A stretch of 64,000 bases of DNA from Lycium barbarum (lineage: Eukaryota > Streptophyta > Magnoliopsida > Solanales > Solanaceae). The stretch covers positions 32,703,637 through 32,767,636 of the forward strand of contig NC_083339.1 of assembly GCF_019175385.1 (NCBI RefSeq), given 5' to 3'. Shown piece by piece: positions 293 through 42,863 of the stretch; the stretch's first letter is position 1, and the number at the start of each line of letters is the position of its first letter. The position numbers and the translations under genes were made by a program. The notes under the pieces are model-generated. The model was not told the origin of the DNA and ran no database searches. It saw only the letters and a list, made by a program, of their open reading frames with translations.

Positions 293-412
293 GGATCCGA
301 AAATATCAGCATTAAGGCATCGGATTCCACTAAAGATTCGAGGTTAAGCGTGCTCAGGTGGGAGCAATTTCAGGATGGGTGACCCCCCTGGGAAGTAATT
401 GGGAAAATTTTG
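293..412 (+). ncRNA. 5S rRNA-derived segment in interior of element A
   Basis: This stretch matches plant 5S rRNA from its first base. The 57 bases from GGATCCGAAAATATC to GTTAAGC run without gaps against the 5S 5' half (GGATGCGATCATACC to GTTAAGC). The A-box-like GTTAAGCGTGCT begins at 343 and the C-box-like AGGATGGGTGACC at 372, a spacing of 29 as in 5S. The 3' arm of 5S is not conserved, and TTTT follows at 408-411, a possible Pol III terminator. 5S sequence is known inside LTRs of Cassandra TRIM elements; here it lies in the interior, not the LTR. Whether Pol III uses it is unknown. The homology was read by eye against remembered plant 5S. Confidence 0.85.
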
Positions 413-1220
413 CAAAATTAAAATTTAAGGGAACAAATGGAAAACTAGGGTAACCTGAGTGAGACTATGGTCTATGGGGTGGTTGGAGACCATAAAAAGG
501 CGCATAAAACGAGGTAGACTTGCTCGGTGAAGAGGCAAAAGAGTATGTCACAGCTCGGGAACTAGGATAGGCTTGAATAAAGTTTGGAAGTATTTTGTGG
601 GTTAGTTGATAATAATTATATATATAGATGTGGGTGCACACGTTATCCCATATGTGATGGTATCAGTAGACACGTGTGTCCTAACAACCTATGCTACGGT
701 AAAGGAGGCCTCAATCGGGTAAAGGGACACCGAAACCTGAATAGTAGTGAGAAAACAAATGGTGTTAGTATTACGCGATAGGATGCTATTTCCACTATAG
801 GTTAAGGACAGAAAAGTCTCGACGGTATGGTGTTAGAAAAAGAAGTAGGTAAGTAAATGAGGAGTAAGGAAATTCAGATATCGGTGAGTAAACGAGGAAA
901 ACCTTGGTGGATGAAACCCCTAAGAGGAAATTTTCGGCGAGATACGAGATTATCAGATAAAGGTGTAAATGCAGACATGGGGCAAGGATGGAGTACGGTA
1001 ATATGGAACGAAAGAGGAATATGTAAGATTCAAGGATTAATTACAATGAGCCGAGAGGGAAGGCAATGAAAAAGATGGACAAAACGATGATATGAGCAAG
1101 GAGAAAAAAGGAAACAATTTGAGCTGAGAAGTTTCGATACGTTATGCATAGAGTTGGAAAGTGTGACGAGGGATGAAGAATAATTAAAGATAAGAGTACT
1201 TTAAGGTCGTGACGTATAAG

Positions 1221-1243
1221 GAACCCCCTTAAAGGGGGGGAGG
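1221..1243 (+). promoter_or_regulatory. Central polypurine-tract-like palindrome, element A
   Basis: AACCCCCTTAAAGGGGGGG followed by AGG: a C-run, TTAAA, then a G-run. It lies about 390 bases before the terminal tract. Equivalent palindromes occur in the interiors of B, C, D, E and F. It resembles a second plus-strand priming site, or a hairpin; neither role is shown. Confidence 0.5.
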
Positions 1244-1601
1244 CCATATTAGGCCTAAAGGGAATAACGAGGAAAGAAATGAGCACCAACACATAAGGTC
1301 AAAGACAAGTACGCCTGCATCCAGAGATACGAGAGGAAAGATTAAAGAAGAGTTGTGGTAGGGATCTAAAGGTGAGGCTTTTGTTAAGATATGGTTATGG
1401 AATAATAACATAAAAGAGATGATCGGAGGAAGACAAGGATAAAAAAATATTGGCCCAGCACTTAGGAAACCCATGAGACAGAATAAGGACCCATATGAGG
1501 ACGAAAAGACTCGACTATACGGAATGGGCATGGAAAGAACGGGCAACTATAAAAAGAAACCCCCTCCCGGAGTGCTACAAGACCATGTAAGGTCAGTTGA
1601 A

Positions 1602-1635
1602 CATTCGAGGACGAATGTTCTAAAGGGGGGGAGGA
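1602..1635 (+). promoter_or_regulatory. Polypurine tract with upstream palindrome, element A
   Basis: The palindrome CATTCGAGGACGAATG is followed by TTCT and the purine run AAAGGGGGGGAGGA, which abuts the LTR at 1636. Its position immediately 5' of the LTR identifies it as the plus-strand DNA priming site. The same palindrome-plus-tract arrangement recurs in B, C, D, E, F and I. Confidence 0.85.
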
Positions 1636-3782
1636 TGTTATAGCCCGTATTTCGTACGTCCAGAAAATTCAAGGTAATGGGGAGAAGTTAAGAATAAGAC
1701 TATGTTTCAAAAATAATTTTAATATACGAGTTGTTGAAAATATTATTTATGAATATTGTTAGAGTGGAAATATTGAGGAAGACCAAGGGCGGAAAGGAAA
1801 TTGGCAAAATGGCATTATGGTAATTTTGTGGAAAGGCTAGGGGTAAAATGGTCATTTTACAAATGTTCAAGAAATCTCTTGAAAAAGGCCATGTGGCCGA
1901 AAAAAAAAGGGAAAAGAAAAGGGATTAAGTCATCTTTGGAAATTTGGAGAAAAATCTAGAAAAAAAAAAGAGAAAAAGAAAGGAAAAATCTAGAGAGGGG
2001 GAAGCATGTGCCCCTCACATAACCTATACAACTATATATATATATGTGTAGTCATATTATTAAGAGAAAAAGAGTGGAAGAAAGAAGAAGAAAAAGGAGA
2101 GGAGAAAGAGGAAGTGCACGGCCAAGGGGCAAAAATTTGGCCCCTTGAAATAGTGATCAAAAAATTATTCTCTCCTAGAATTCCAACCAATTTGAAGGCC
2201 CTCTTCGACATGGTATAGTTGTTTCGGAAGATAGGTCGTTCGTTTCATCATTTCCGCACGTTGGTCAAGGGAAGAGGTTGAAGAGAAGAGGTAATATTTA
2301 ATCCTTTTTATGATGTTATGAAGGCTTGTTTACATTGTAGTATGAAGGAACGGATAGAATTCATGAAAATATGGGAGGGTTGTATGGTATAGCCGTGTGC
2401 ATGCCTATGTTGTTGAGGCAAGATTAGTTAATTTTTATGTAGTATTTTAATTGTTGTTGTTATGGAATTTATATTGGAAATGAAAGTTTGGTAATTTTGG
2501 TTGAATTTGTGGGTGTTGGAAGGTGGCCGAATGTGTGTGTGTGTGTGGTATGAAATGTGAATCAAGTTTTATGTAATAATTTAATTGTTGTCGATATGTA
2601 TTTTAGGATGCAAGTGAGATTATGACGATTCTAGTGAAGTTGAAATTGTCGGAAAGTTGTTGTAGAAGTTAATGGGAATCGAAGGTAGACTTATTGCATT
2701 GATGGAAAATAATGTCGTTAGTATTTTGGTTGTCCTCGTTGTGAGTATTATGATAGAAAATCAAGTTTTAATAATCCAAGTTAATATTATAATCATGTGG
2801 GCCGCATTGGAAGGAAATGTAGTCTTGATGTGGTTTCTTGAATTTATGAAATGAAGTTGTAAATGTATGTATTGTGACATAATGTGTGAATTTGGAAGGA
2901 AAGAATGTGTTTGGTGTTGTTCTCGGGCTTGGGGACAATTTCGGGTGAGTTGGAACCTTGCTCGAGTCATTTTGGAAAATTTTGTGAATTGTTGGAAATG
3001 TTATGGAATCATGTTTGAATGGTTTTGGATTGATTATATATCTTGATTTGAACGTAATTGGAATATCGTCGCATTATGCGAAAGAAGGTTGCTAATGTTA
3101 AAGTGCGTTTACATTAACGGTCGATGTTGTTAGAATGTTTGTTGTCATTGTTGTTGATATTGTGGCCGGGTCAAATTCCTGGATTGTTGTTGTGTTGATT
3201 GGGAGCCGAGCCGTATTCTCGGGGTTGGTATTTTTACAGGGGAGGTGCTGCCGAAATTCCGGCAGGATACAAGTGAATGTGTTTTCAAGGTTAAGGCAGG
3301 TATATGATAATGAAACTAACGAATGGATGGATTCTCCTGCATGTAGACAAACAAATTGGATGCATAAGCGTAGCTGGAGGTCGCGGCACAGGTATGTAAG
3401 GCTTACCCTTCCTTTCCTTTGGCATGTCCTAGTTGTAATAGGCTATGATACGAGCCTCGAGGGAAACTCTATTCCTAGAAATCCGAGCTTGATTTGGACC
3501 CCTATTCATTCAGAGAAATTGAACGAAGAACCTTATGCTTTGATGGAAACATAGTTTGAACGTCCGTAACTTCTACAAATGAAACCGGATTGCCCTGAAA
3601 CCTTCATGGATGACTCTATAAGGCTAAATGTTCATAGTTTATATACGCGACCTCGACTTAATCCGAGGTGGGCCCATAATTCCCGAACCCCATTTGTATT
3701 GTTCTATTGGACTCATTTCCGCATAGCAATTAAGAGAAACTTGGGCTATTGTTCTGGATTTGTTATGAACTGTATGTACTCT

Positions 3783-4120
3783 CTGATATAAGTATCTGGA
3801 AATTCTGATATGAGTATTCCTATATAGGCATTTGGATACAAGTATTTTCGATATGGATATTTTGACAAAAGTATTTTGACGTAAGTACTCCGATACAAGA
3901 AATTTGACGTAAACATTTTGATAGAAGTATTCGGATATAAGTATTTTTGATATGAGAATCCTGACATACGTATTCTGTTATAACTACTCTGATATAAGTA
4001 TTTTGATATAAGTATTCTGACCTAAGCATTCTGACATAAGTATTCTGATATGAGTACCCCGACATAAGTATTTTAATATAAGCATTCTGATATGGGTAAC
4101 CTGCTATGATTATTCTGATG
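3783..4120 (+). repeat. 14-bp minisatellite in LTR of element A
   Basis: Degenerate tandem units of the form GATATAAGTATTCT recur with 14-base spacing for about 330 bases. Frames through it give tyrosine-, glutamine- and isoleucine-rich shadow peptides that I do not consider genes. A homologous array lies in the element B LTR (14466-14763). Confidence 0.8.
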
Positions 4121-4960
4121 CCACGCTCGATCATTCTACCGAGTCTCGATTTATGTGCATTTAGTTGCTCACTACTCTGCTCGTGCATGTGCTATGATCC
4201 CTTTCCCCGGATCCCGGGCCGGTATATATATCGTGCGGATGGTTCGCCGAGTCCTCTGTTAAGGGCCGGGTTCCATTTATGAATTCCGAAGTATGATGTG
4301 TCTGGTTCCGGGGTACTGTGTTATATGTCCGTCCCCGGTTACCGAGGATATATTATGAAGTATGATGTGTCCGGGCTCGGGGTGCTGTGTTATCTGTCCG
4401 CCCCCGGGTACCGTGGTTATGTTATGATGTGGGACGGAGATCGGAGCAAATTTTCTGAAATATGATGTGTTGTGGCGCCAAAGGTAGGAGTGGCGACCAC
4501 GTTCCTACGTTATTGTGCGCATCCCTTGGCGTTGTTCACCGGTTCCTCGGCGTGTTATCTGTCCCCAAGGTTATCATGTATATGATAGGATGTGACCGGT
4601 CCCTCGGCGTGATATTTGTCCCCGAGGTTACCGTATTTATGATATGGTATTTGTCCCGGCGTGGTATATGTCCCCGGGGTTACCGCGTATGTGATATGAT
4701 ATCCGATTCCGATATGCATGACTTGTGTTGGAGAGTAAGCATTCTGACCTTCCGTACATTCTGTATCCCATTTGCTATATGACATCATTTGAGTAATTTG
4801 TACGTTCTGTAATCCGTCTGGCATACGAGATGAGTAAGTATGATTCGTGTCTGGAAAAGAAAAAAAAATAATAAGTGTTTGGTATTCTGGATAGGCTATT
4901 TGTATGTTGTTCTATCTGTCTCAGTCATGGTTTCGTTTTCTGTACTCATGCCTTACATAC

Positions 4961-5019
4961 TCAGTACATATTCCGTACTGACCCCCTCTTCTTCGGGGGC
5001 TGCGTTTCATGCCCCGCAG
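4961..5019 (+). promoter_or_regulatory. Three-hairpin LTR module, copy 1
   Basis: Hairpin I is TCAGTAC (4961-4967) with GTACTGA (4975-4981). Hairpin II is CCCCC (4982-4986) with GGGGG (4995-4999). Hairpin III is CTGCG (5000-5004) with CGCAG (5015-5019). All three stems pair perfectly. Ten copies of this module occur in the window's LTRs, with compensating stem changes. Confidence 0.8.
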
Positions 5020-8000
5020 GTACCCACAAGTGGATAGACGAGATTAGCTGAAGATGATCCGGTGGATTGGCGGGCTCCATTTCCTCCAGGAGTGCTGCCG
5101 AATCAGAGTATGTATGCTGTGATGTCTGATCAGTATTAGAGACTTTGCAGACAGCGTCGTGGGTAATGATAGTCAGTCTGTAAGCGGCTCCATCAGCCGA
5201 TATGTCATTTTGTGTTATGTAGTAAATTTCATATAATTACAGATTTGTTAAATTTTGGAAATAGTAAGCAGAAAATTTTGAAAGTTCAACATGTATTTTA
5301 TTTGTAATTGACTTTCAGAATTCAAAAAAAAAAAACATTAGGTGTGTAATCATGGTCTGCGGGTTCGCTCGGCTCTGTATGTGGGGTCGAGTGCCGATCA
5401 CACCCTAATGAGGTTAGGGTGTGACACTCGAGACATTCTGCTTAAGTTGATTAGGCTTTTTGATCGTATCCACATATGCACTGTAATTAGCATAGAACTC
5501 CCGGACTAGAACCGGACAATACTTCCCATGAGGTCGATTGAAAGCGTCCAGTCCATAATGCTGGAGTGTCTCTCTAATCCGAAGCTGATGCTCCAAATAA
5601 CGAAGCCCAATGCGCCTCTCCTCAAATATAGTACGCTGTGGGTTTTCGCCTTTCTTCGACCCATCGATCCCCTTCTCGTTTCGCTCCTTCACACCCTCTA
5701 CCGAGAATCATAGGTCATTTTCCATTTTTGTAGAATAAAGTTCGGCCCAGATGCACTCCATAGCACTATCATCACTAGAGTCACTCGCCACCCGGACTTG
5801 TTCATTATCGGACCCGCTTGTAGTAGCGGACCCCTCGTTACCAAACTCTTCATTCCTGGACCCTTCATTATCGGATCTGTTATATCCTGCATGTTGTACG
5901 TTCGGATAATTCGAGATAATTGCGAGAAGTTAAGGGCAAGACCATTTTCCAAAGTTATTCTAAAATACAAGTTATTATGAGTATTATTGGGATGGAAATA
6001 TTGAGATAGGTTAAGGGTAAAAATGGAAATTCACAAAAGAGTTTATGGTAATATTGTGGAAAGGCTAGGGGTAAAATGGGAATTTCACAGAGTGTTCAAG
6101 AAAATTCTTGAAATGTCACTTTGGCCATGTGACATAAAAAGTGGGCTCCGCCCATAGCCATGTGTCCATGTTCTTACTTAAGGGACCAAAGTTTATACAA
6201 CAAGACAAGTGGATGTATTGGTTATTTTAAGAAAATTCTAGAAAGGGGAGAAGACCCATGTGTCCATAACTTTTATTTGAGGGACTTAAAAATAAATAAG
6301 GATAAATGATGGAAAAAAAGGATAAATAAGACATACTTCTCTTCTTCTTTCCTTAAGAGAAATCAAGAAACTTGGAGAAGCCCCAAGTTGATGGCCATTC
6401 GGCCATGTGCACCCCAACAAGAACCTTGAGAAAAATTTGTTCAAAACTTTTTTTCCTACTAATTGGAAGGTCCCTAGCAAAGTGGAGTACCTATTGGAGC
6501 AAGAAAAACATCTATTCTTGCAAGTTCATAACCATGGTCAAGTGAAGAAGTTGAAGGAAAAAGGTAAGAATTAATTTCCTTTTATATGTTATGGATGATT
6601 TATGTATGTTGAAGTGTGTAGAAAAGGATTAAATTCATGAAATATGTGTGTATATGTGTTGGCCGAATGGAAGTGGTGTGGTGTAGAAAGAATGGATTAA
6701 TTTTACTTAGTATTTAGATTGTTGTTGTAATGTATAGAAATAGATGAAAATTCATGAAAATATGTATGTTGTTGTTGTGGCCGAATAAGGGGTTGTTTTG
6801 GTAAGTTATGGTAAATTGATTTCATTTGATATTCTAGTTGTTGTTGATGTGGATTCTACGATGAGAATGAAAGTTTGATGGCTTGAAATGAAGTTGTAAT
6901 CGTTGTAGGATTGTTGAAGAGGTTAATGCGACACTAGCATGAATTCTTATAATTGTATGGACGGTATTGTAACATGTGAATTTTGATATAGTTTATGAAT
7001 CTATAATAAGGAAAATGTGTTGTTGTTGTCCTTGTTGAAGTTGGAAGATTTCGGACTATGTTGGAAGTTGGCTAGGCCATTTAAAATATTGTGTGAGTTG
7101 CTTGAAGTATTCGTGAGTATCGTTCGAATGGTTTTTGATTAATACTTGAATATATGAGCAACCATATTGGCTTGATCGTATGCGGTTGGATTGAATATAA
7201 TTGTTGGTATTATTGTTGATAATGTGGCCGAGTTCCATTCTCGGATTTGTTGTTGTGAAATTGACCGAGTTAGATTCTCGGGGATGGTGTATTTACAGGG
7301 GAAATGCTGCCGAAATTTTGGCAGAATATAAAAGAATTCATTTGAAAGAATAAGACTAGTATATGCCGATGAATCTAATGATTATGTCAACTTTCTTGAA
7401 TGTAGACTAACAAGTTTGGATAAATAAGCGTAGCTAATAAGGCGTGGCACAGGTATGTAAGGCTTACCCTTTCTTTCTTTTGGCATGTCCTAGAGCTAAG
7501 TAAGGCATGACATGACACGCACCTCGGGGTAATTCTACTCTTTGATTCCGAGTTTGGTTATGATGTCTATTCTCTTTTGTCATGAGTATGTTTCGTATGG
7601 TTGAGTCTATTGTATGATCACTAGATGAATAAGTTACTTCATATGGTATGATATGTATCCATGATTCCGAGACTCTGTTCGATATGTTCCCGAGGTTGCC
7701 TATGATTCTGATTCACTTCTGATATAAGTATGTCTGATATGATCAAGCTTATTATATGATCGAATAATGAGATGAGAATAAAAAGTTTGTTCTGAAAGAG
7801 TTCTGTAAGTTCTTAATGTCCCCAACGTTTGTAAAGGATATTGAATTTGCTTGAAACGTTCGTAAAAGCTCTATGGTAAAAATGTCCGTAACTTTTACAT
7901 ACTAACTCCGATTAACTTGAAATATGTTTATGATCCTTCAAAGGTCGGTATGTGTATGTATATATCGAGTCTAGATATGTGTGTGTGGTTTCGCACTACT

Positions 8001-8027
8001 CTGTTCGTGCAAGTCTCTGTATGTCTG

Positions 8028-8480
8028 TTCACTGAGTCCCGGGCCAGGATATGTTCTCGTGCGTATTCCATTGCATTGTTCACCGAGACCCACCAGTAGA
8101 GGGCCGGGACACGTTATATGATGATGGCGCCAGATCCGGACCGGATCCCCTCTACCGAGTCCCTTATTAAAGGACCGGGACACGTTATCCACCGAGTCCT
8201 TCACTGGCGGGCCGGGACACGTTACATGCATACATGATATTTGATGTGACATGCATGATTTTATCTACCGAGTCCCTCATTCGAGGGCCGGGACACGTTA
8301 TGCATATGTAATATACGATGTTGGTATACACGATTCTATTCACCGAGTCCCTCACTCGATGGCCGGGACACGTTATTTACACATGTGATATGTTATATGG
8401 ATCGGGCTGCACGTTCCGCAGCGGTATATATGTATATATATGTATGGATCGGGCCGTACGTTCCGCGGCATTATTACATT
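8028..8480 (+). repeat. Hairpin-forming repeats in LTR S1
   Basis: Several degenerate copies of ACCGAGTCCCTC...GAGGGCCGGGACACGTTAT occur. In the clearest copies CCCTC and GAGGG flank a short ATTC loop and can pair. Two copies of GGATCGGGC(C/T)G(C/T)ACGTTCCG follow at about 8399-8465, a motif also arrayed in the LTRs of F and D. Confidence 0.65.
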
Positions 8481-8688
8481 ACGTATGACATTGGCATCCA
8501 TGTTTTGTGTTCGAAAATAAAATCAAGCATCTTGATATTCTGGTGTTTTGGTATTTTGGATCTGTACTTCTTCTGATACATGATTCGCGTTTGGAAATTA
8601 AGTATTTGGTGTCCTGGGTAATGTACGGACCTTTTGTACTGTTTGTTTCGATTACGGTTCCGTTTTCTGTAACTTATGTCTTACATAC

Positions 8689-8746
8689 TCAGTACATATT
8701 CCGTACTGACCCCTTTTCTTCGGGGGTTGCGTTTCATGCCACGCAG
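8689..8746 (+). promoter_or_regulatory. Three-hairpin LTR module, copy 2
   Basis: TCAGTAC (8689-8695) pairs with GTACTGA (8703-8709), CCCC (8710-8713) pairs within GGGGG (8722-8726), and TTGCG (8727-8731) pairs with CGCAG (8742-8746) using one T-G wobble. The wobble keeps the third stem that is CTGCG/CGCAG in copy 1. Confidence 0.78.
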
Positions 8747-9476
8747 GTACCTACAGATGAATAGAAGGTTTGTCAGAAGATGTTTCAGCAGGATTGACGA
8801 GCTCCATTTATTTCTGGAGCGTTGCCGAGTCAGAGTATATGTATGTTCTGATTTCTGGATTGATGTTAGAGACTTTGCAGACAGCATCGTGGGTATTGGT
8901 TGTCAGTCTGTAAGCGGCTCCATCAGCCGATATGTCATTCTGTGTTATGTAATAAATTTTATATAATTACAGATTTTGTTTAATTTTGGGAACGATAAAG
9001 GAAAGATTTCGAAAGCTTAATATGTATTTTACTTTTATTTTATTTTCAGAGTCCGAAGAAATTATGTGCGTAATAAGAATCTATGGGATCGCTCGGCTCC
9101 GGATATGGGGTCGGGTGCCCATCACACCCTAGGGCATTAGGGTGTGACAGGATCCTTCATTGCCGAACCCTTCATTACCGAATCCTTTATTCCCGGAACC
9201 TTCATTACCAAATCCTTCATTTCCCGACCCTTCATTACCGGACTCCGATTCAGATGAGTACTCCTCCTCTTCAGATTAGGAGGAGTCTTGTGGTGATGTC
9301 GCTTTTTTGGCTTTTCTGGCGGTGGTAGTTCTCGATCTCTCGGGAGGTAGGGCAATCATGGCTTATTCATCAGAGTTTTTATCACGAAGCCTAGTGGTAA
9401 TGTTATCTCTGCCTCGACCCCTCATTCTAGCAGGTTTGGAACCACCACCCCTTTTTACTGGTTCCTTTGGCCTCAT

Positions 9477-9701: not shown

Positions 9702-11415
9702 TGTTATATCCCGTAATTTGTACATTCGGATACTTCAAGACAATTGTGAGAAGTCAAGGACAACGCCATATTTTGATCTTGTTTAACACACAAGTTGTCT
9801 ATGAAAATTTTTGATGTGGAAATATCGGGGAAGGCCAAGGGCGAATTCGGAATTTGGAAAAAAAAAAGATTTTCATGAATTACAAAACACAAAAAAAAAA
9901 GAAAAAAAAAAAGAAAAAAAGAAGTGGGCTTGAATTAATTGACCAAGGTGGCCATCCACCTTAATGGGCCAAGGCCCATATGAGAGACCATTACATGTTA
10001 TTAAAAAGATGACAAAGTCATCTTTAACTCAAGAATTTTCAAGAAACCTTGAGGGAAAAAAGGACCCCTCCATTTCGGCCAAGAAGAGAGAAAAATGGAA
10101 CCTTCAATTTTGATCCAAAAAAATATCTTCTTCTAGTATTCCTACTAATTTGAAGGTCCTCTTCAACGTGGTACCATTGGTGAAGCAAGAATCCCTCTTA
10201 TTGTTGCAACTTTACAACCCTAGCTAAGTGGGGAGTTGAAGGAAAAAGGTAAGGAATCAATCTCCTTTTATATGTTATGGATGATTATGGATGTTGTGGT
10301 ATGTAGAAATGCATGAAATTCATGAAAATATGTAGTGTGTGTGTGTGGCCGAATGGAAGTGGTTGTGGCCGTGTGTATTGTGAAAAATTAAGGGGCCAAT
10401 TTTACTTAACATTTTGGTTGTGTTGTTATGGATTTTATGTTGTTAATAAAAGTCTAATGATCTTAGTGAAGTTGTAAGGGTTAGAGACTTATGTTAGAAG
10501 TTAATGTGAATTGAATATTGTGTTCTTGTAATTATGGAAGATAATGTTGTTAGTGCTAATTGTTAGTGTAGTTCATGAAGTTGAAAGAAAGAAATGTGTT
10601 GCCATTGTTCTTGTTGAGTTTGGAAGATTTTGGGTAGTATGTGGTTTGGCCGTTTGAAATTTTTTGTGGGTTGTTGGAGTATTCTTGAATATTGTTGAAT
10701 GGTTTCGGATTAGTATTTGAATGTGTGAACAATTATGAATTGAATATAAAGGAAGTGTTATTAAGTTATGTAAAGGAGCTACTAATGTTGGAATGTATTT
10801 TGAATAAATTGTTGAAGTTGGAAGATATGATTGTTGACATTGATGTTGATATTTTGGCCGAGTTAAATTCTCGGATTTGTTGTTGTATTCTTGGCCGAGT
10901 TGAAATCTCGGGGATGGTATTTACTGTCACGACCCAACCCCGTAGGCCATGACTAGTGCCCGATCTGGGCACTCAAACGCATTCTAATATATGGCAGAAG
11001 CCGACAAGGCTTTATTTCAAATTTAGCTAATTTTTAGAAAAATTTCGGCAGAGTTTCCTTTGTTTTATGGACTATCCCATATATCCTGCACGCAGAAAAT
11101 ACCAACAAAGGCCACACAGGGCCAACAACGCAACATTTAAATATATGCGGACCGGCCGCCGCGGCGAATGGGATCGCCCAAACACAACATAAGCACCCAA
11201 CTGTACAGAAAGATCCCAACCCACAACATGTCCACAGACCTCTAACAAACCGACAGAATCCTATGACGGGACAGGGCCCCGCCGTACCCATGAACGAGAA
11301 TATACATATATAGAAGTGACAGACTATACCAAAAGATGGCCCTGAATAAAAGAGCGCTCCAAGAATAGCAGAATGAGATCCTAAGCAGACGGATCAGCAA
11401 ACCTGTCGTCGGTAC

Positions 11416-11474
11416 CTGCGCGGCATGAAAACGCAGCCCCCGAAGAAAGGGGGTCAGTACGAAATATGTACTGA
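11416..11474 (-). promoter_or_regulatory. Three-hairpin LTR module, copy 4
   Basis: On the + strand the order is CTGCG (11416-11420), CGCAG (11432-11436), CCCCC (11437-11441), GGGGG (11449-11453), TCAGTAC (11454-11460), GTACTGA (11468-11474). All three stems are perfect. Confidence 0.8.
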
Positions 11475-13226
11475 ATATGTAAAGCCTGAGTTGCAGAAAC
11501 AAAATCATAACTGGTGCAGAACATACAGAAAGTAAACGGAAAATCCAAAGTATCAGATACATATTTCCAAAACATGCAGAGTGTGTACAGAACATATGTC
11601 ATATCAAATCCGGCCCCTGCCAAAGGACTCGGCAGACAGAACGTGGCCACCCTCCCGACGCTGGTGCCACAACACAGAAGAATCAGAATAGGGGCATAAC
11701 CCCGTAACATAATATGTCATATCAGATGGCCATAGTAAATCATATCAGAACAAACGTACATGGCACAGCATACTCCACAAACCCATGTACGCATATACCT
11801 GCCCCCTCACATCGAGGCGCGGCGAACAATCCAGAGGGATTACGCTTGACAACATATCCTGGCCCGGGCTCAGTGTGGGAAACATTGGGGCATCCACGAA
11901 TAGAGTCGTGAGAAACTAATGCAAGTAAAATATCATAAATGTTTCCATAGACTCAATGAGGCATATCAAAGACAAACCGATCCGATGAAGTCGGAAGGAA
12001 TCATAGTAAATGAGTTTCGAGTATCAAAACAATTTATCAGACTTAATGGAATATTTAAAACCATATTAGTTAGGTAATTAAAAGGGTAGTTGAAACATTT
12101 CTTTCAAAAATCGTTCAAAAAGGGGACTTTAGCACATTAAGGGCAAAACCGGGAATAGCGGGCCCACCTCGGAACAAGCAAGGCGGTGGGCTCAAATTAC
12201 GCCCTTTAAGCTTATGGGGTCACCTATAAAGGTTCTACGGACATTCTATAGCTTTCCAAGGAGTTTAGAGAAGGTTTGCATAATTTCAGGAAAAGCATAT
12301 CAAAATGGTTCAATTCTACTGAAGGAAAAACTGAGATTTTCTCTTGCGGATTCCGATGGCCAAGGAGGTCTTTTGAGGCCCGAATCCGATCATAAAACAC
12401 TTAGACATGCCAAAAGAAGGATCGGGGTAGCTTTACATACCTTTCACGCTCCTTAAGCCTTTCCAAACTCACTTCCCGTTTCGTCGAAAAACTGCAATTG
12501 GTCAAGTTTACCAATCGTGAGTTATGAATACCATTATTCCAACTTAAAGCATATTTGTCTACCGAAATTTCGGCAGCACTTCCCCTATACATATAGCACC
12601 CCGAGAATTCAACTCGGCTAGAAATCATCAACAACAACCCAAACGACAACATTAACATCAACAAAGAACATCAAAAACACAAATATCCTTCAACTAGTCA
12701 TTTTTCTCACAAGTTGGCATAACCTTCATTCTAATCCAAACCTTCACTAATATCAATGATTTCACATCCATTATCACTCAAGATCATCACAATATAGATT
12801 TTGAGACATTTCATATCATTTTCCTTAAGTTATACACTTGATATACATAATATACAACTTTCCGCCAAAGTCATAATTTATGGTAAACATCAAATCTTTG
12901 GCATACAATTTCATAACAAGTTTCCAACTTCCAATTTCATCAATGATCATCATAATTCACAACCAAACAACTTCATTTCCTTAATGTCGGAAAATCATAC
13001 TAAAACGACATAAGTTTCTACATTCCAATTCAATACAAACTTATATCATTCTAACTTCATTTACATCACAAGAGGTCATCACAACACAACTAACATATTA
13101 AACAAATTTAATTCATTGCCATTCTTATCTCCATACCACACGGCCAAATGCACCCATATATACCCACTTTGCAAACTTTCATATTTTTCATAATTTCTAC
13201 TTATTCCTACATGCTACAACACACAC

Positions 13227-13230
<4 letters not shown>

Positions 13231-13302
<72 letters not shown>
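13231..13302. repeat. (AT)n microsatellite
   Basis: About 70 bases of uninterrupted AT dinucleotide repeat inside solo LTR S2. Confidence 0.95.
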
Positions 13303-13304
<2 letters not shown>

Positions 13305-14465
13305 CAAAGTAAAAGGAGCAAGATCTTACCTTTGTTCTTCCAAGCTTTTTCACTAAACCCACTTGTCAATTTGAGGAAACAAGCTCCCTACCTTCCAAAT
13401 TAGCTACACCAAGTTGTAAAGGGTACTAGAATTAGTGAAAATATCACAAAACAATAAATTTTGGATCAAAGGTTGATGGCAAGAAAATTTTCTTTCTTTT
13501 CTTTCTTGTAGCCGAAAATGGGGTGGTCTTTAGCTTCTTGATTTTTTTTTTCTCTACAAGTTGAAGATGACATAGTCATCTCTTTTTTTAAGCCTTTCAA
13601 TTTAAAAACCCACTCATGGGCCTTGACCCATAAAGGGGGCCGGCCACCCCCTCCAATTGGGCCTTAATTTTCTTTTTGTTTTTTGCTCTTTCTAGCCCAA
13701 TTAATTATGGCCCTATTTGTAATTCCCGAAACTAATTTCCGAAATTCCAATTTTTCCCTTAGCCTTATTCCACACTTCCACAAAAATATTCTTTCATGCA
13801 CAACTCTTGTGTTAAATGTAACCAATGATGACTTTATTTCATACAAGTCAAGATTATTTCTAATTTTTCCAAATGCGCGAAAATACGGGACATAACATTT
13901 ACAGGGGAGATGTTGCCGAAATTTCGGCAGAATATAAGAGAATCTATTTGAGAAGTTAAGACAAGTGTTGATTTAAGATTTAATTCCTAAAGGCTTATAA
14001 TCAATGTTTGGTATTTGTGACCAATTGTAGATTTTGGAACTTGAATTTGGAGAAGCATAAGAAGCGGAAAAGGTATGTAAGGCTTTACTTTTCCTTCTTT
14101 TGGCATGTCTTAGACATATTAGGTTTGGATACGAGCCTCGGGGGCGATTCTATTGCTAGAAATCCGAGTTTGAATTTGACCCTCTTCCATTCAATAGAAT
14201 TGAATCAAATTCTTCATGCCTTGTTGAAATAAGTGCTGAAACATCTATAACTTGCCCAATTGGAACCGAATGACACTAAGACTTTCATAAGTGACTCCAT
14301 AAAGCTTAATGTACGTAATTTGTGTACGCCACCTCGACTTGACCCGAGGTGGGCCCACAATCCCCGAGACCTATTTGTGTTGTCCTATTTGATTCATTTC
14401 CGTACAATAATTAAGGAAAACTTTTGGCTATTGTTCTGAGTTTGTTGTGATTCGTATGCATCCTC

Positions 14466-14763
14466 TGAAATAAGCATCTATAAACTCCGATATAAGTATT
14501 CTGATTTGACTATTCTGATATCCGATACAAGTGATTTGATATGAGTGTTCCCAACTCTGATATAAGTATCTTGATATGAACATTTTGATACGAGTATTTC
14601 GATATGAATATTTTGATATAAGTATCTTGATATAAGTGCTCTAATATGAATATTCTGATATGGGTATGTAAACTGATATAAATAATCCGTTATGAGTATT
14701 CTGATATAAATGTTTTGGTATAAGTATTCCATTATAAGTAATCTGCTACGAACATTCTGATGA
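14466..14763 (+). repeat. 14-bp minisatellite in 5' LTR of element B
   Basis: Degenerate 14-base units such as GATATAAGTATCTT are homologous to the array at 3783-4120. The two arrays differ in unit number and detail, so they have turned over since the two LTR families split. Confidence 0.75.
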
Positions 14764-15665
14764 TACGTCGGTTATTCCATCGAATCTTGATTTAATTGCA
14801 TTTATTTTCTCACTACTCTGCTCGTGCATATGTCATGGTTTCCTTCGCCGAGTCCCGGGCCGGTATGTATCGTGCGGATGATTCGCCGAGTCCGTTGTTT
14901 GAGGGTCGGGTTCCATATATATAATTTCGGAGTATGGTGTGTTCGGTTCCGGGGTACTGTGGTATATGTCCGTCCCCGGTTACTGTGTATATGGGGTATG
15001 ATGTGTCCGGTTCCGGAGTACTGTGGTATACGTCCATCTCCGGTTACCGTGTATATGGATTATGATATGACCGGTCCCCGGGTTCTCGTGGTATCTGTCC
15101 GGTTCCCGAGGTACCGTGTATATGTTATGATGTGTGACGGAGATGTTCGGAGATATGAAATCTTCTGGAGTATGATGTGTTATGGCGCCAGAGACGGGAG
15201 TGGCGACCATGTTCCTGTACCCTATGCATGACTTTGATATGCATCATTTGTGATTGAAAAGTAAGTATTCTGATATTCTGGATAAGCTACTTACCTTCTG
15301 TATTTTTCCTGATATATGATTTTGACGTACATTGATAATTCTGTTCACCGCGTCCCTTACTAAAGGGCCGGGATCTGTTATATGCACATATATGATATAT
15401 GATTATGATATGCACGATTTGAGTTTGGAAAGTAAGCCCTTTGGCATTCTGCACTCCTTCTGACCTATGCGATCGGCATACAAGATCCGTATTTCTTCTG
15501 ACGTATGATTTCAGCATATATATGACCTCTGCATATATGATTTGCGTTTTAAAAAAAAAATATATATATATATAATAAGCGCTTTGGTAACCTAGATAAC
15601 ATACTCACTATCGTACTAAGTGTCTTGATTACGTTTCTATTTTCTGTATTCCATGCTTTACATAC

Positions 15666-15725
15666 CCAGTACATATTCCGTACTGACCCCCTCTTTCTTC
15701 GGGGGTTGCATTTCATGCCGCGCAG
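15666..15725 (+). promoter_or_regulatory. Three-hairpin LTR module, copy 3
   Basis: CCAGTAC (15666-15672) with GTACTGA (15680-15686), CCCCC (15687-15691) with GGGGG (15701-15705), and TTGC (15706-15709) with GCAG (15722-15725). One mismatch lies at the base of the first stem; the second is intact. Confidence 0.75.
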
Positions 15726-16130
15726 GTACTCCCAGATGAGTTGAAGACATTATAGAAGACGTTCCAGCGAAGATGGCAAGCTCCATTTGCTCCTAGAGAA
15801 TTTCCGAGTCAGAGGATATGTGTTAGAGGTTTTGTTAATGTTAGAGACTTTGCAGACAGAGTCGTGGGTATGGTATGTCGGTTTAGTAAGCGGCTCCATC
15901 AGCCGATGTGTCGTTTTGTATTACGCTATAAAGTCCGTATGATTACAGATTTGTTTGACTTGAAAGCTACAAAATATATATATGTTTCAGTAAGTTTTAC
16001 TATGTACTACATTCTATTTGATTATAAGTCCGGAAGGATTATGTACGAAATGAAAGTCTGTGGGTTCGCTCGGCTCTGGATATGGGGTCGGGTGCCCATC
16101 ACACCCTAGCGGGATTGGGGTGTGACAAAG

Positions 16131-16143
16131 TGGTATCAGAGCA
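16131..16143 (+). promoter_or_regulatory. Primer-binding site, element B (initiator Met tRNA type)
   Basis: TGGTATCAGAGCA begins three bases after the LTR end. TGGTATCAGAGC is the usual plant primer-binding site complementary to the 3' end of initiator methionine tRNA. It fixes the LTR boundary and the element's orientation. Confidence 0.93.
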
Positions 16144-16226: not shown

Positions 16227-16633
16227 GGCTACGGGGCATCTAGGGATTGTTGACCTTCTTTCTGTCATAGATCGTGCGATAGAGCCAAGTCATAGGAAAA
16301 ATGAAACTCTTGCTGTATGCCTTACATACGATGGATAAAGGTAAGTGACAATATGGAAAGGTCACAAGGGCAAGTCTGGATATATTTGTTCTATTACCTG
16401 AGACAGAAAGTTTTGGGTGGCTAGAATGTGATACATAGCCGTATGCTCTATAAGGTGTTGTTGGTATTTGCTGCGTACAAATTTCGAATGATAAGAATTT
16501 GTAAAGGTGACTATTGAAGATCAAGAAGGGTAAAATGGTAATTGTAAAAGAAAGGACGTATTACGAACATGCCTCGGAATCTGTAAGACCTCGACTAGCC
16601 CCAAATCATGTAATAAGGTCCATATGAGAAAGC

Positions 16634-16745
16634 GGACGCGATTATATCGGCATTAAGGCACTGAACTCCACCGAAGTTTCGAGGTTAAGCGTGCTAAGGT
16701 GGGAGGATGGGTGACCCCCCATGGGAAGTATGCAAGAATTTTATA
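16634..16745 (+). ncRNA. 5S rRNA-derived segment in interior of element B
   Basis: GGACGCGATTATATCGGCAT begins a 57-base gapless match to the 5S 5' half, ending at GTTAAGC (16684-16690). A-box-like GTTAAGCGTGCT is intact and C-box-like AGGATGGGTGACC is present, but nine bases between them, covering the intermediate element, are missing. TTTT follows at 16739-16742. The internal deletion would probably disable Pol III initiation if that were the function, so this copy may be decayed. Confidence 0.83.
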
Positions 16746-19630: not shown

Positions 19631-19658
19631 TACTTTTCCTGATTAGCGGGCTCTAGCA

Positions 19659-21410: not shown

Positions 21411-21477
21411 TTACAAAATTAAAGTCGAGTTTAATACAGAACCCGACTTTACCTCTTTTTTTCCCACTTCTTCCACG

Positions 21478-23808: not shown

Positions 23809-25585
23809 TTAGAATGGAAAGTTCAGAGATAACTGCTTTAGCTGATCATAAGATTTCTCGAACTTAGCATCTTCCTTCTTCTTCACGAACCTTTGAGGAA
23901 AGGGAGGTTTAGATTTGAAAAGCTGAGTCAAAGGGAAGAGAGCCCCTTTTACAGTCTGCTTGCTCTTATCATCAGCCACCTCCGAACTTTCTGGAATATC
24001 ACCAACTTTCTCTTTACTAGGCATCTCATCAACAGTAATTGGTGCATTAGACTGCACCTCTTCCTCTTCATTAATTGGCTCGAGATCAACAACCTTCTTT
24101 TTAACACCATGAAGTATTTTACCACTTGGAGTACTAATATCAAACACACAGTGTACACCGCTTCCCCCATTCTTCGAATTCGGAATAATGTCACTAGGAA
24201 GTCCTCCCTTTTTAGGAGGGTGCTACTCTCTAGAAATATCACGCATCTGTGACCCGAGCTTTTGAATAACTTTTGTATGAGATACCACTATTTCCGTTAG
24301 CCCAGATAACATCTTTTCAGACTTGGTTTGATTTTCCAGAACCTTCTCAAGCATTGCCTCCAACCTCGAACTACCTTGATCGTTTGACTGCCCTTGTAGT
24401 GAATGTATGGATTGGAACTTCTTTTTCCGAAGTTGTTGTTGTTGTTGTTGTTGTAGTTCCCTTGGTTCGAACCACCATAATTGTTGCTATAGTTCCCTTG
24501 GTTGTTGTTGTATACACCTTGCCCCTGCTGAGGTCTCCGTTGATTTCAATTCTGATTCTGATAACCCCCTTGGATGTCCCTCTTGAGAGCATAGTTATCA
24601 TAATTAATATCCTCGACTTGCATAGGAGGTCCCTCGTGAAATGTACCTTCTTGGACTTGGTACATCCCATTCGGCATACTTGAATTGTCTTCGCAAACGT
24701 TTACCTTCGTAGTCTCTCTCTCATCAAACTTCTTCGTCAGCAAAGAAATATTCGTTGCAAGCTGAGCCAATGTCTGCTGAGTATCCTGATTCTCTTTCAC
24801 CATATTCTGGATCGTGACATTCCTATAGAGTACACTATCAGAATTGTTCGAGTGCCAAGCCTGATTGTCCGTAGTCAATCTGTTAAGTATATTGGTAACT
24901 CACGTGCAAGATTTATCCATGAAACATCCATGAGCTGCGTTGTTTGCAATTGACTGCGTTATAGGATCCAGCCATCGGTAGACCTTCTCCATTAATATGT
25001 TCTTTGAAAAACCATGACTCGGAAACTTCTATAAATGTTATTTAAATCTCTCCCATGCTTCGTATAATTGTTCCCCTTGTCGCTGCTTGAATTCATAGTT
25101 TTTGTCACGGATCTTAGCCTTCTTGCTAGGAGGATACCATTTCTTGAGAAAGACAGCTACCATCTCTGCCCATGTAGTAATAGAATTCCGGGATAGCTTC
25201 TCGAACCATGTTCTTGCTTCTCCAGCTAAGGAATATTTGAAAAGCCTCAGCCGAATAGCATCTTGTGTAACATTTTTTTTTGGATGTGATCAGCATATAT
25301 ATCCACAAAGTTCTGCAAATGTCGTTGAGGATCATTATCGGTAGAGTTTCGAAAGTAACCCTAAAGCTTCAACAACTAGTAGAGAGAGGAGTAAATTTTG
25401 ACACTTGTAGCTCCAACTCGAGAATGAACAATAGCAGATGCATAGTCCTCCTCATCAATCAGATCAGCAAATACATTCTCCTCTTTTGCATCAATCGGGG
25501 GGTCATGAAGTTGACCACCCTGATTACCAGGTGCAGCACATTGATTTCGTATAACCATGATCACCTGGTTCACAAGGAATAACAA
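23809..25585 (-). pseudogene. gag: gag pseudogene (Athila, minus strand)
   Basis: The N-terminal frame (from about 25558) reads MVIRNQCAAPGNQGGQLHD then ENVFADLIDEEDYAS. The core gag domain follows in two frames: DNDPQRHLQNFVDIYADH, then after an A9 run (about 25276) a frameshift into AIRLRLFKYSLAGEARTWFE and ITTWAEMVAVFLKKWYPP, typical of the plant Retrotrans_gag domain. A further piece (24878-24546) has LAQLATNISLLTKKFDE, a likely coiled stretch, and an Asn/Tyr/Gly/Gln-rich tail. The last open piece (24147-23809) is acidic. A (TTG)n run at about 24432-24452 encodes a low-complexity stretch. Gag would form the particle shell; this copy is broken. Confidence 0.85.
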
Positions 25586-33945: not shown

Positions 33946-33950
<5 letters not shown>

Positions 33951-38400: not shown

Positions 38401-39340
38401 ATTTCCAGAATTATATAATTATGATCCCCCTTAATTTTATTTCATTTTAACATAACCCCAAGTCCTAGAAAGCCCGAGAAAGCTCTCCAAACATATTCCA
38501 ACATATTTCCAAGCCTAAATCAAAGATTAAAGTGGTAAGGGTTTCCAAGTGAGGTCTACACTTGTCTACTCTTCTCGAAGATTCTTGGGTGAGTATTTTT
38601 AAGCTGGAGTAACCTTGGAATTGAAGTGTTCTTGCATTTGAGGTAAGATTTCATATTAGTTCCATGCTTATGAGTTTATTTGGTAATTATGTTACGTTTT
38701 GAGGAGAAGATATTGGAGGAAAAGTTCAAATATGAATTTGATGATATTTTGAGTTGTAAATTAACTTGAGCTATAATTATTAATATGTTATAAGCATAAT
38801 CTTATTATGACGGGTAATAATGATGATGAGGAAGTGTTGTATACAAGTGTATAAGGGTTTGTGTTGAAGTTGTTTTTATGAATTGACTATGAAAATGTTA
38901 CACCCCGTATCTTCGAAGAGCACTTATCAAATTTGAAACATAAGTACGTTGAGTTAGTGTTAAGTAAAACCACTTTGGAATAAAAGGATCAAGTATTATT
39001 AAGTATAATTAATGAGTGAATGATGTATATAAGGTATACCGGAAGGTTTTATAAGGAAATGAGTGGAAGAAATGGAGAAGTACGACTTTGGAGAAAGGAT
39101 GGGTAAAGTTTCATGTGAATATTTTGGTCCAACTTGAGAGAAGAATATCTCTTAGCATATGAAATGCTTTAAGGTGTTTCAAACACCCAAAATGAATTTC
39201 CTTGAGTCTGGTTTCCAACACAACAAACCACTCATCAATAGGACATTGGAGTAGAGAATTATGGACGTTACAAGTTCAGCTGACAAAGCAGAAACGCGTG
39301 CTACAGTACTACTACAGTGACCTGATCCGAATTTGACCCC

Positions 39341-39350
39341 TATATAAAGG
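39341..39350 (+). promoter_or_regulatory. TATA box in 5' LTR of element F
   Basis: TATATAAAGG follows a CTACAGTA-repeat array by about 20 bases. The 3' LTR keeps it at 45140-45149. It is a plausible Pol II promoter for the genomic transcript. Confidence 0.7.
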
Positions 39351-40349
39351 GTAATAACCCTCTTTTTCATCAGATTTTGCCCAGAAAATCAGAAGAGGGA
39401 GTGAGGGAATCAAAAAGTGAGCAATTTTCAAGTAGCGGAGTAGTAGTTTAGGTACGGATAACGCATGGATGTGATTCTAGAATTGTTCTGCGGTGGATTT
39501 TAGCGTGGATTTAAGGTGGAATCTTGAAGATATTATCGTTTGGACAGGAAAAAGGTATGAATCTTTCTCTTTTGGTATTATTTAAGGCTTATTTAGTAAG
39601 ATAATGTCGTTAAATAATCGTATAGTAAGTTGGTTAGTCAAAAGTTGGAAAACAGCTTGTGGGCTGTTTTATGGCACATATTGGTGTTGGAACTTATATT
39701 ATTGATGTTGATATTGTTGTTGTTGTTGTTGGTTGCTGAATTGAGATTTCGGGCTAGGCACATAAACAGGGGAGATGCTGCCCGACTTTCAGCAGGATAT
39801 AAAATAGTTTGATTTGAAAACTTAGCACAGGTATACAACAATGAATCTAATAATAGTTGAATCCTCTTAAATATAGATCGACGAGCTTGGAAAGACAAGC
39901 GTGCAGTAATTAGAGTAAGGCGACCAGAAAGGTATATTAAGGCTCGTCCCTTTCTTTCAAAGGCATGATTCTTACGTTATGATCTCGTACATGATTCCAT
40001 AACCACCTTGTTTCCAAGAGCTAGAAGTTTATGACTCTTGAAGCTTCTTATGATGTTAAAGATGAGAATGTTTTTATGAGGATTACGATGATGATGATTT
40101 TATTTTTAAGAGTTTCAAGTTATGATTTTAACGATGATATGAAGATGTTGAGCTACTTTATGATGTTCTTGATACTATTAATTGTTGTTGATCTCACCAT
40201 ATGAATTGTTCCTTCGCGGTGAGATATAGCGATAATGGTTGTTCCATAATATGAATCGGAGGTTACCGACCTTACTTCACTCCGATAAAGTTGTAGCTTT
40301 CATCTAAGCTTTCTTGAATACTATTTACATTATGTATATGAACGTGGTA

Positions 40350-40495
40350 TATATGGATCGGGCCGTACGTTCCTCGGCACTAACTTATATGGATCGGGCC
40401 GAACGTTCCTCGACACTAACTTATATGGATCGGGCCCGTACGTTTCTCGGCACTAACATTTATGGACCGGGTTGCACGTTCCGCAGCACTAATAT
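40350..40495 (+). repeat. GGATCGGGC-type repeats in LTR of element F
   Basis: Four tandem units of about 34-36 bases: TATGGATCGGGCCGTACGTT, CCTCGGCACTAACT and variants. The 3' LTR has the same array at about 46163-46300, and element D LTRs carry it on the minus strand (about 51310-51430 and 57535-57650). Confidence 0.8.
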
Positions 40496-40614
40496 TTATA
40501 TTGTATGTGTTTTCTTGATATAGCCATACTAATTTATTTATCTTGCACATTTATTGATATGTCTCAGATGTCTTCCATGAGTTTATGTACATGTTGATCT
40601 CATGCCTTACATAC

Positions 40615-40680
40615 TCAGTACATCGTTCCTACTAACGTCCCTTCTTGTGGACGCTGCGTTTATGCCCGCAAGTGTAGATA
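40615..40680 (+). promoter_or_regulatory. Three-hairpin LTR module, copy 6
   Basis: TCAGTAC (40615-40621) faces a decayed CTACTAA, CGTCC (40636-40640) pairs with GGACG (40649-40653), and CTGCG is followed by GCCCGCA. The second stem has a different sequence from copies 1-5 but still pairs. Confidence 0.72.
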
Positions 40681-41081
40681 GACAAGACGAGGATCTTTCA
40701 TCGTAGGCTGCCTTCAGGTACAAGTTCTGATTGGTGGGCTCTACTTCTTCCTGGAGCGCTGCCGAGTCTGGCTGTATATATGTTTTTATGATTTTTGTTC
40801 AGGGCATGTCGAGAGCCCTGTCCCGATTTGTATACTTCAGTCATGTTCATAAAGGCTTTGCAGACAGTTCCTGTGTATTACTTAGTTATGTTCTGTTGGT
40901 CGTTATATTGGTGTCGTGGGTCCATTGGACATATATTTATACATGATATTACGTTCATATCTAGCCTTAGCCTTATTTTGTCATTCGAGACATAGAGAAC
41001 ACAAGTTATAAGTTGGTTCGCTCGGTTTTCGTAAGGTGCCGGGTGCCAATCACGCCTTACTAAGGGTGGGGTGTGACAAAT

Positions 41082-41093
41082 TGGTATCAGAGG
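41082..41093 (+). promoter_or_regulatory. Primer-binding site, element F
   Basis: TTGGTATCAGAGG begins three bases after the LTR end at 41078. It matches the initiator Met tRNA type for the first ten or eleven bases. Confidence 0.88.
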
Positions 41094-41134
41094 AGTTCTA
41101 TCCTAGGGTTGTCTGCAAGCCGTGTCTAGCAGAG

Positions 41135-41176
41135 TCCTGTTTATTGGTGTGAAGCCGGCCACATTTATAAACAGGA
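41135..41176 (+). ncRNA. Leader hairpin with self-complementary loop, element F
   Basis: TCCTGTTTAT (41135-41144) pairs perfectly with ATAAACAGGA (41167-41176). The apical hexamer is GCCGGC (41154-41159), palindromic but different from the GCGCGC of element B. It begins about 53 bases after the primer site. Confidence 0.78.
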
Positions 41177-42743
41177 GGCTGCAAGCAATTTAGGAATGAT
41201 TGACCTTATTTTCTCATCTTAGATCGTGCAGGAGAGCCAATTCATAGGAAATGAAATTCCTTGTACTAACCCTTGATTTCAGCGAAAAAATAGTGTTGAT
41301 AAAGGAAGAGGATAATGATATTAGGATTACAGAGGTAAGTCACTTTGTTGAAATTACGTCATCAAGATGTGCATCTTCTATGAGAATAAATTAGTCATAG
41401 TCAAGATAAGCTGATTGTACAGTAAAGCAGGGGGAATTAGTTACGTGTATAATTTAATGATAAGTTCAGTTGTAAGATTGTAGACAACAGAAGTTGAAGG
41501 AAACAACACAGAGGTAAGTAATGGTAAAAAGGATTATAAGTCAGATATAGTAAGAATGTTGCAAGTATTATCGAAATGTATAGCCAATGAATGGAAGAGA
41601 AAGTGACCAGGGAAATATACAAGGGCGATTGATAAAAGTTCAAGTATATTCCGAGTTGTGCCGCATGAGGTACGTTTCGTCATCTTTGCATTTCTGTTCG
41701 ATATTGAGAGCCCTGTGAGGCTAATGTGTGTGTTATGCATGTATATATTTGACCCTGTGAGGCATTGCATGTATTTTCTGGGCTGCGTGAAGGATTTGGA
41801 TAGTAAGAAGTATAGGGGAAACTCTGTCAAAATTTTCCTAAAATTTAAGGATGAGGACCAAGGATTTAAGAGATAACAAAGATTATACGTCTATGATTGC
41901 TACAGATTGATTAAAGGGAAAGTATAGGACACGTTGTTATGGGATGATAAAATAAAGATGACGCCACAAGTGGACATCGGGCATCAGTTATTGGAATCAA
42001 AAGTGCTATTCTGACTGGACAGATAGTTGAGCACATCACTACTTCGTTTATCCCTACAAATTTCAATCGAGAATGGCAATGAAATATAACACTATAAGGT
42101 AAAACCTTTAAACGGGGAAACAAGTAAGACTGAGTACGAGCACAAGGACTGACTAAGGTATTGGAGGACTTATGACACCCGACAATGGGGCAATCGAAAA
42201 GTAATGGGGAGTTATGAAGAAAGATGAGCTAAGGAAATGCAAGGAGAAGCCATGAAAGTAGACGGAGATAAGATCGCAAGAAAAGGATTCAAGGATATTG
42301 TGTTGGTCAAAAAGAGCTGCTGACAATGAACCCTTGTGAAATTTCAAGCCGCTAGTTATATCAATTGCGAGAGTATATGACATAGAACCATACAAACAAT
42401 CATCATGATTAGATGGCTAACAGAATGGTGCAAGCACGATGAGGAGGATACTTCACTCTACAGCCCTCCAGACCGAGAGGAGGACAGGCCGACTACAGGT
42501 ATATGAGTCTTTTATTGGAACTTCTTATGTGCGTACAACTGTTGCAGGATACCGTTGATAGTTGATAAATGGAAGTTTTGAAGGGACCGATAACAAAAGT
42601 ACTTATAGATAACTGCGGTTAAGAAGTTTTACCCTTACAAGGAATCCTTTTAATCTGGAGGGAGATGCATTACGAGAATTTATCGGAATTCGTTAGAATT
42701 TCAGCTTGTTCTAGGTTACGTGATAAAGGTCACGCAGTAAGGT

Positions 42744-42863
42744 GGATGCAATCATACAAGAACTAACGCACTGGATCCTATTACCACTCGAAGGTTAAGC
42801 GTGCTGGGGTGAGATTATTACTAGGATGGGTGACCCCCCGGGAAGTGTACTAAAAATCTTACA
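42744..42863 (+). ncRNA. 5S rRNA-derived segment in interior of element F
   Basis: The best preserved of three. It starts GGATGCAATCATACAAG against 5S GGATGCGATCATACCAG, keeps GCACTGGATCC, then GTTAAGCGTGCT, GGGGTGAGATTATTACT and AGGATGGGTGACC with exact 5S spacing (29 bases from GTTAAG to AGGATGG), and GGGAAGT. The final 3' arm of 5S is lost. A box, intermediate-element region and C box are all present. There is no T run directly after it. Confidence 0.87.

Follow-up and report, generated by a model that had tools for sequence, protein, structure and literature searches.

The stretch of Lycium barbarum DNA analysed here (64,000 nucleotides (nt) of contig NC_083339.1, positions 32,703,637 to 32,767,636 of the forward strand; hereafter the window) contains three long terminal repeat (LTR) retrotransposons, designated A, B and F, all on the plus strand. 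The interior of each carries a segment, in sense orientation in all three copies, that is homologous to plant 5S ribosomal RNA (5S) from nt 1 to approximately nt 104.

Element F is complete (38896-46887, 7,992 bp). Its 5' LTR (38896-41078) is followed by the primer binding site (PBS) TGGTATCAGAG (41082-41092), the polypurine tract (PPT, 44657-44669) precedes the 3' LTR (44670-46887; Kimura two-parameter distance (K2P) to the 5' LTR 0.081), and a 5-bp target duplication, GAAAA, flanks the element. The 5S segment begins about 1.66 kb into the 3.6 kb interior. In element B the 5' LTR (9702-16127) spans 6.4 kb, apparently through an insertion of about 3 kb at approximately 10925-13897. It is followed by the PBS TGGTATCAGAGC (16131-16142), which we take to be of the initiator tRNA-Met type, and by an interior of 1.6 kb with the 5S segment about 0.5 kb in. 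The PPT stands directly before the 3' LTR, which begins at 17742, is cut off at 18283 and agrees with the 5' LTR at 527 of 541 compared bases (K2P 0.026). Two inverted fragments, 85% identical to each other, adjoin this truncated LTR (18279-22831); one of them contains a reverse transcriptase domain (RVT_1 in 18389-19282), and they look Athila-like. Of the boundary features of element A, only the PPT and the 3' LTR fall inside the window: the interior occupies 1-1635, with its 5' part lying before the window and the PPT at its end, and the 3' LTR (1636-5426) starts with TGTTATAGCCC, ends with GTGTGACA and matches B and a solo LTR. The solo LTR of this A/B family lies at 5878-9149 and has a 5-bp target duplication, GGATC.

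The location of 5S in the interior, as reported in the initial annotation, was thus confirmed for F and for B, and is partly visible for A. The LTR lengths given there (2.2-3.8 kb) apply to F (2.2 kb) and A (3.8 kb) but not to B. The description of the elements as non-coding was also upheld: none of the 19 open reading frames (ORFs) of at least 75 amino acids (aa) overlapping the three interiors reached a Pfam cutoff, the single weak match lay below it (PH_CAYP2, 17.9 bits vs 27), and no pol domain was found in A, B or F. The PBS, PPT and LTR ends resemble those of plant Ty3/gypsy elements of the Tekay/Del type. An arrangement of LTRs, PBS and PPT around a long non-coding interior was found complete in F, nearly complete in B and in part, within the window, in A. 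The three elements are non-autonomous and resemble large retrotransposon derivatives (LARDs).

Homology of the interior segments to 5S

A plant 5S sequence was used as the query for an nhmmer search of the whole window. Three matches stood out, in F (42744-42847, 61.0 bits, E 3.4e-18), A (294-399, 46.1 bits, E 1.6e-13) and B (16635-16729, 32.2 bits, E 4.2e-9). The next match in the window scored 2.8 bits, and 20 random windows of matched first-order composition gave no match above 6.7 bits. With the 5S sequence and a profile of the 5S block, no location in the window other than these segments was found. The motif GTTAAGCGTGCT followed by AGGATGGGTGACC at a distance of 8-24 nt occurred three times in the window, compared with a mean of 0.00 in 100 shuffles. 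Chance similarity to 5S was ruled out by the nhmmer scores, the random windows and the shuffles.

The segments extend over 293-396 in A, 16634-16729 in B and 42744-42847 in F, the last being nearest to plant 5S. Collinearity with 5S from its first base, as originally described, was found in all three, and nt 1-70 could be aligned without gaps; the right-hand ends first proposed (412, 16745 and 42863) lie slightly too far downstream. The homology starts at nt 1 and is gradually lost beyond about nt 104, so that the segments lack the 3' strand of helix I. The proposed comparison with covariance models gave a borderline answer, in that the sequence profile was clear whereas no 5S match in the window reached the Rfam gathering cutoff. 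With relaxed thresholds, RF00001, whose cutoff is 38 bits, gave 35.3 bits for F (E 0.0015), 21.7 bits for A (E 6.1) and 11.6 bits for B (E 7.9) in searches spanning all 4227 families. As these scores are below the cutoff, the segments are 5S-derived, but are not 5S genes by the Rfam standard. All non-5S Rfam matches from the relaxed search of the window were also under their own cutoffs. A match to plant snoR71 was observed at 25009-25115 on the plus strand (36.2 bits, gathering cutoff 40).

Conservation of the promoter boxes

The internal promoter of 5S genes, used by RNA polymerase III (Pol III), includes an A box and a C box, and both are present in all three elements. In A the A box (GGTTAAGCGTGCT) lies at 342-354 and the C box (AGGATGGGTGACC) at 372-384; the corresponding positions are 16683-16695 and 16704-16716 in B, and 42793-42805 and 42823-42835 in F. 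When the 12-nt A box of the Cassandra type is used as the reference, the boxes of A and F are separated by 18 nt and those of B by 9 nt, in agreement with the original observation that both boxes are kept in all copies and are properly spaced in two.

For the counts, the boxes were defined as 5S nt 51-62 (A box) and nt 80-92 (C box), 25 positions in total. The box bases were identical to plant 5S at 25 of 25 positions in each element. The match of the remaining bases within nt 1-104, with indels allowed, was 52/79 in A, 46/70 in B and 59/79 in F (Fisher P for box against non-box 2e-4, 3e-4 and 0.003, respectively). The three-way comparison gave the same picture, since all 25 box columns were invariant, as against 38 of 70 elsewhere in the 5S segment (Fisher P 5e-6) and 238 of 476 gap-free flank columns (50%). 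At the flank rate, 25 invariant box columns would be expected with a probability of about 3e-8, assuming that columns are independent. In the 726-column alignment, the two longest invariant runs were 17 columns, containing the C box, and 14 columns, containing the A box; of 20,000 column shuffles, 0.2% gave a longest run of at least 17 and 0.04% a second-longest run of at least 13. These results support the earlier suggestion of constraint on the boxes. The comparison of box and flank rates that had been proposed gave invariant boxes and 50% invariant flanks, for three copies rather than for many.

The reading that we favour, and which we place just short of probable, is that an inherited, 5S-derived interior segment with invariant Pol III boxes was kept as a control module at the DNA level in the source copies that were replicating. 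The contrary explanation, that a 5S fragment was captured once and has since been neutral filler, the identical boxes being the result of luck and common ancestry, is possible but in our view doubtful. It has to account for the lack of variation in any of the 25 box columns despite an identity of only 61% between A and F and 64% between B and F, which is unlikely by both the shuffles and the flank rates, and for the boxes being better kept than the remainder of their own 5S segment.

Several observations nevertheless weigh against a conserved module, and some of them agree with a relic. Only three copies were compared, two of which (A and B) are close to each other (73% identity), and the probabilities given above assume independent columns. 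Element B has lost 9 nt between the boxes, which breaks the promoter spacing, and this loss includes the end of the intermediate element; the LTRs of B have diverged little, yet its box spacing is broken. The 3' end of 5S has been lost from the segments. Conservation is also not confined to the boxes: 5S nt 93-104, on the 3' side of the C box, were invariant at 10 of 12 columns with indels allowed, so that conservation may extend over an enlarged C-box region, and the best pair of flank windows having the shape of the boxes was invariant at 21 of 25 columns (433 placements). Among other promoter signals, no TATA-like motif was recognised near -28 of the 5S start in A, B or F. A GC near the start was found at -10 in A and F and was absent in B; in Arabidopsis 5S genes GC is located at -12. 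Runs of four T residues occur in A (+116) and B (+106), whereas F has none before +468. Finally, under neutral decay only about one box base in F, and less in B, should have changed since insertion. With an LTR divergence of 8% in F, intact boxes since insertion are therefore unremarkable, and constraint can be claimed for the source lineage only. If real, the constraint acted in that lineage, and it says nothing on these copies today.

The nature of the constraint was examined at the levels of RNA folding, coding and DNA. An RNA-level mimic, i.e. a transcript with a 5S-like fold that serves export, stability or packaging through its binding of RPL5 or TFIIIA, has a precedent in the pre-mRNA of plant TFIIIA genes, where a 5S-mimic intron acts with RPL5 according to one report (PMC6164485), and the sense orientation of all three copies would suit such a role. 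A/B/F share with this intron a 5S-derived sequence in a presumed RNA polymerase II (Pol II) transcript. Whereas the intron acts through binding of its RNA by RPL5, neither the fold nor the RPL5 site was preferentially kept in A/B/F. With the 3' strand of helix I gone, the 5S base pairs within nt 1-103 were retained at 19/20, 14/16 and 15/20 in the three copies (plant 5S itself pairs at 31/34 by the same count), which is the chance level when substitutions are dealt randomly over paired sites (P 0.33, 0.54 and 0.53), and the conserved pairing typical of the TFIIIA intron was not found in A, B or F. The predicted folds were no more stable than those of shuffled sequences (z +0.22, +0.26 and +1.59). 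Invariant columns numbered 2 of 11 in the region of loop C and 4 of 11 in the part of helix II that lies outside the box. It is at helix II and loop C that RPL5 is described as binding in the same source (PMC6164485). A 5S RNA mimic was rejected on the evidence of pairs, folds and RPL5 site and appears quite improbable, and the roles first put forward, binding of RPL5 or TFIIIA by RNA and nuclear export, are weakened accordingly.

A conserved stretch within a reading frame (VKRA...GWVTP), to which the open 135-residue frame of a related database sequence (P0040, see below) might point, was also considered. Substitutions were spread evenly over codon positions 1, 2 and 3 (13, 21 and 18 between A and B; 36, 34 and 30 between A and F; 33, 34 and 28 between B and F), and stop codons interrupt the frame across the segment in A, B and F. 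Coding constraint was rejected on the evenness of the codon positions, and is extremely unlikely. Because there was no pair retention beyond chance, no extra fold stability and no codon bias, the linear sequences of the boxes, i.e. a DNA-binding site, offer the best reading, and the pattern speaks for a conserved promoter or TFIIIA site in the DNA rather than for an RNA mimic.

Relatedness and origin of the 5S block

Over the 5S block and its surroundings A and B are about 70% identical, while F is 62% identical to either of them, over about 800 bp of A and about 560 bp of B. All three share departures from 5S beside both boxes (GG before TTAAG, and CCCC after GGGTGACC), which suggests a single capture. 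Judged from the alignments, the segment looks shared by descent from one capture, between PBS and PPT, in a common ancestor. Downstream of the 5S segment, two further stretches are invariant in all three copies, one of 10 bases (649-658 of A, CATATGTGAT) and one of 8 bases (480-487 of A, TGGTTGGA); both are possible additional functional motifs of the block.

The 5S segment was present in three of the five delimited element interiors and absent from the other two, H and G. The interior of H lies on the minus strand (PBS at 33461, PPT near 28990). Element G (50757-59120, minus strand) has LTRs that are 96% identical over 2.1 kb, a tRNA-Met-type PBS at 56975 and a PPT near 53340. A CCHC zinc knuckle is present in its gag-like ORF (55982-56623), no further ORF reaches 130 aa, and G looks like a gag-only element. 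The gag-like ORF has relatives in Lycium ferocissimum (54-55% identity), and its two best matches are 71-73% identical. The LTRs of G are similar to those of F although G lacks the 5S segment: about 1.1 kb of the F 5' LTR could be aligned with the 5' LTR of G and only about 0.45 kb with the LTR of A (summed BLAST lengths, overlaps included). Since LTR and block similarity differ, the 5S block and the LTRs may have different nearest relatives, as if modules had been exchanged or the 5S block lost in G.

For relatives beyond the window, translated frames were searched against a protein database as a stand-in for plant DNA. One search gave a single match; another gave 141, of which the best 120 were examined. 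The matches were selected by shared 5-residue words, so that the box residues kept in them are no evidence of constraint. One of them, P0040 (135 aa, from a 567-bp ENA contig), can be aligned collinearly with positions 16353-16725 of B (two pieces, 58%) and 151-396 of A (55%), and spans the 5S segment; on this collinearity of translated sequence, it is another copy of the A/B/F family. P0040 has the inter-box residues of A and therefore the full spacing, which shows that the deletion of the B type is not general. By a rough rule, the 120 matches were sorted into 81 canonical-5S-like frames (5S genes or close copies), 33 diverged frames and 6 unclassified ones; by eye, 4 of the 33 look near-canonical. 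Diverged 5S-derived frames include P0007, P0008, P0019, P0055, P0071, P0078 and part of P0076-P0125, many with an inter-box xGA(I/L/M)S. They have different-looking flanks, come from ENA contigs, JGI contigs (groups) and one Eragrostis curvula entry, and belong to other 5S-derived repeats. Pattern scans of viral and bacterial/archaeal contigs, collections described as being without plant genomes, gave no matches. Nor did BLAST find a match to the F interior among plasmids or to the B interior among phages. For plants, none of this is informative.

These diverged frames bear on where the segment came from. An origin from the LTR of a Cassandra element or from another 5S-derived repeat, inserted or recombined into the interior, would be compatible with a conserved DNA module. 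About 29 of the best 120 of the 141 database ORFs are diverged 5S frames, many with xGA(I/L/M)SGWVT like the inter-box stretch of A. In addition, the boxes and their 18-nt spacing in A and F fit the motifs published for Cassandra, and the PBS of B is that of Cassandra (PMC7215508). The homology, on the other hand, extends from 5S nt 1 over about 104 nt, more than the 70-bp core common to Cassandras, although some of these exceed 100 nt. No second PBS with at most 2 mismatches was found beside the 5S segment, and LTR-like ends, sought by eye only, were not recognised. We regard such an origin as unlikely, though it deserves to be kept in mind.

Possible function and comparison with known systems

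In the favoured reading of a conserved DNA module, the segment would be kept in the source copies as an internal control region of type 1, bound by TFIIIA and recruiting TFIIIC and Pol III. In this it would resemble the promoter module of Cassandra, at another place in the element. A short RNA of about 100-500 nt could be made from it inside the element, or the region could serve instead as a platform for factor binding, while the full-length genomic RNA would still be made from the LTR by Pol II. A transcript starting at 5S position 1 would meet T runs at +116 in A, +106 in B and +468 in F, and would thus be short and unfit as a genomic RNA of several kilobases. The interior 5S segment of large elements cannot plausibly drive full-length genomic RNA. 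As a Pol III RNA could not be the genome, the role would differ from that proposed for Cassandra; the same point on Pol III and element length was made for small-RNA-derived miniature elements in PMC10886601. The elements may, to judge from their boxes, borrow part of the machinery of the host 5S genes.

A large LTR lineage may even have captured a 5S-type Pol III region separately from Cassandra and Ajax and kept it as a selected interior DNA module, its genomic RNA being made by Pol II. We consider such a separate acquisition possible, but tentative. It could yield a short Pol III RNA, or let TFIIIA and TFIIIC act as a local chromatin opener or anti-silencing platform. Should the boxes be functional, signals for Pol II and for Pol III transcription may occur together in large non-autonomous elements, and there would be a testable case of why a host promoter that is unable to make their genome should be kept. 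For annotation, it follows that searches based on 5S may count such elements as dispersed 5S copies.

With LARDs and other non-autonomous Ty3/gypsy derivatives, A/B/F have in common the long LTRs, the non-coding interior, the PBS and the PPT. They differ in the 5S module, which was not found reported for LARDs in the open literature among the matches listed. Among the same matches (titles and the starts of abstracts), no 5S sequence in the interior of large LTR elements was described either, and we regard this arrangement as provisionally new. The pertinent papers deal with Cassandra, Ajax and Helenus, which have the small-RNA promoter in the LTR. In terminal-repeat retrotransposons in miniature (TRIMs) other than Cassandra, no 5S sequence was found according to one report (PMC4717578).

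The closest comparison is with the Cassandra TRIMs, and was made with published motifs and descriptions. Cassandra is described as having the motifs RGTTAAGYRHGY and RRRATRGGTRACY 18 nt apart and the PBS TGGTATCAGAGC (PMC7215508), with conserved boxes, variable stretches between them and a shared 70-bp 5S core (PMC10853983). Both motifs were found 18 nt apart in A and F and 9 nt apart in B, and the PBS is exact in B and agrees at 11 of 12 positions in F, that of A being outside the window. Like Cassandra, A, B and F keep the 5S boxes while the stretch between them varies, and they are non-coding and non-autonomous. In the Cassandras of vascular plants, however, 5S is placed centrally in the short LTRs of elements measuring about 0.6-0.9 kb, whereas A/B/F carry one interior copy per element, between LTRs of several kilobases (2.2 kb in F, which spans 38896-46887). 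Membership of A, B and F in Cassandra was rejected on the position of 5S and on element size.

The Ajax (5S) and Helenus (tRNA) TRIMs ('TRIMp3') are likewise non-autonomous LTR elements with the captured promoter of a small-RNA gene. Unlike A/B/F, they have this promoter in the LTRs of elements of 0.3-1.3 kb, and Ajax is found in nemerteans, as stated in PMC10886601. Should the boxes of A, B and F be functional, the 5S promoter would have been captured by more than the miniature elements that carry 5S in the LTR.

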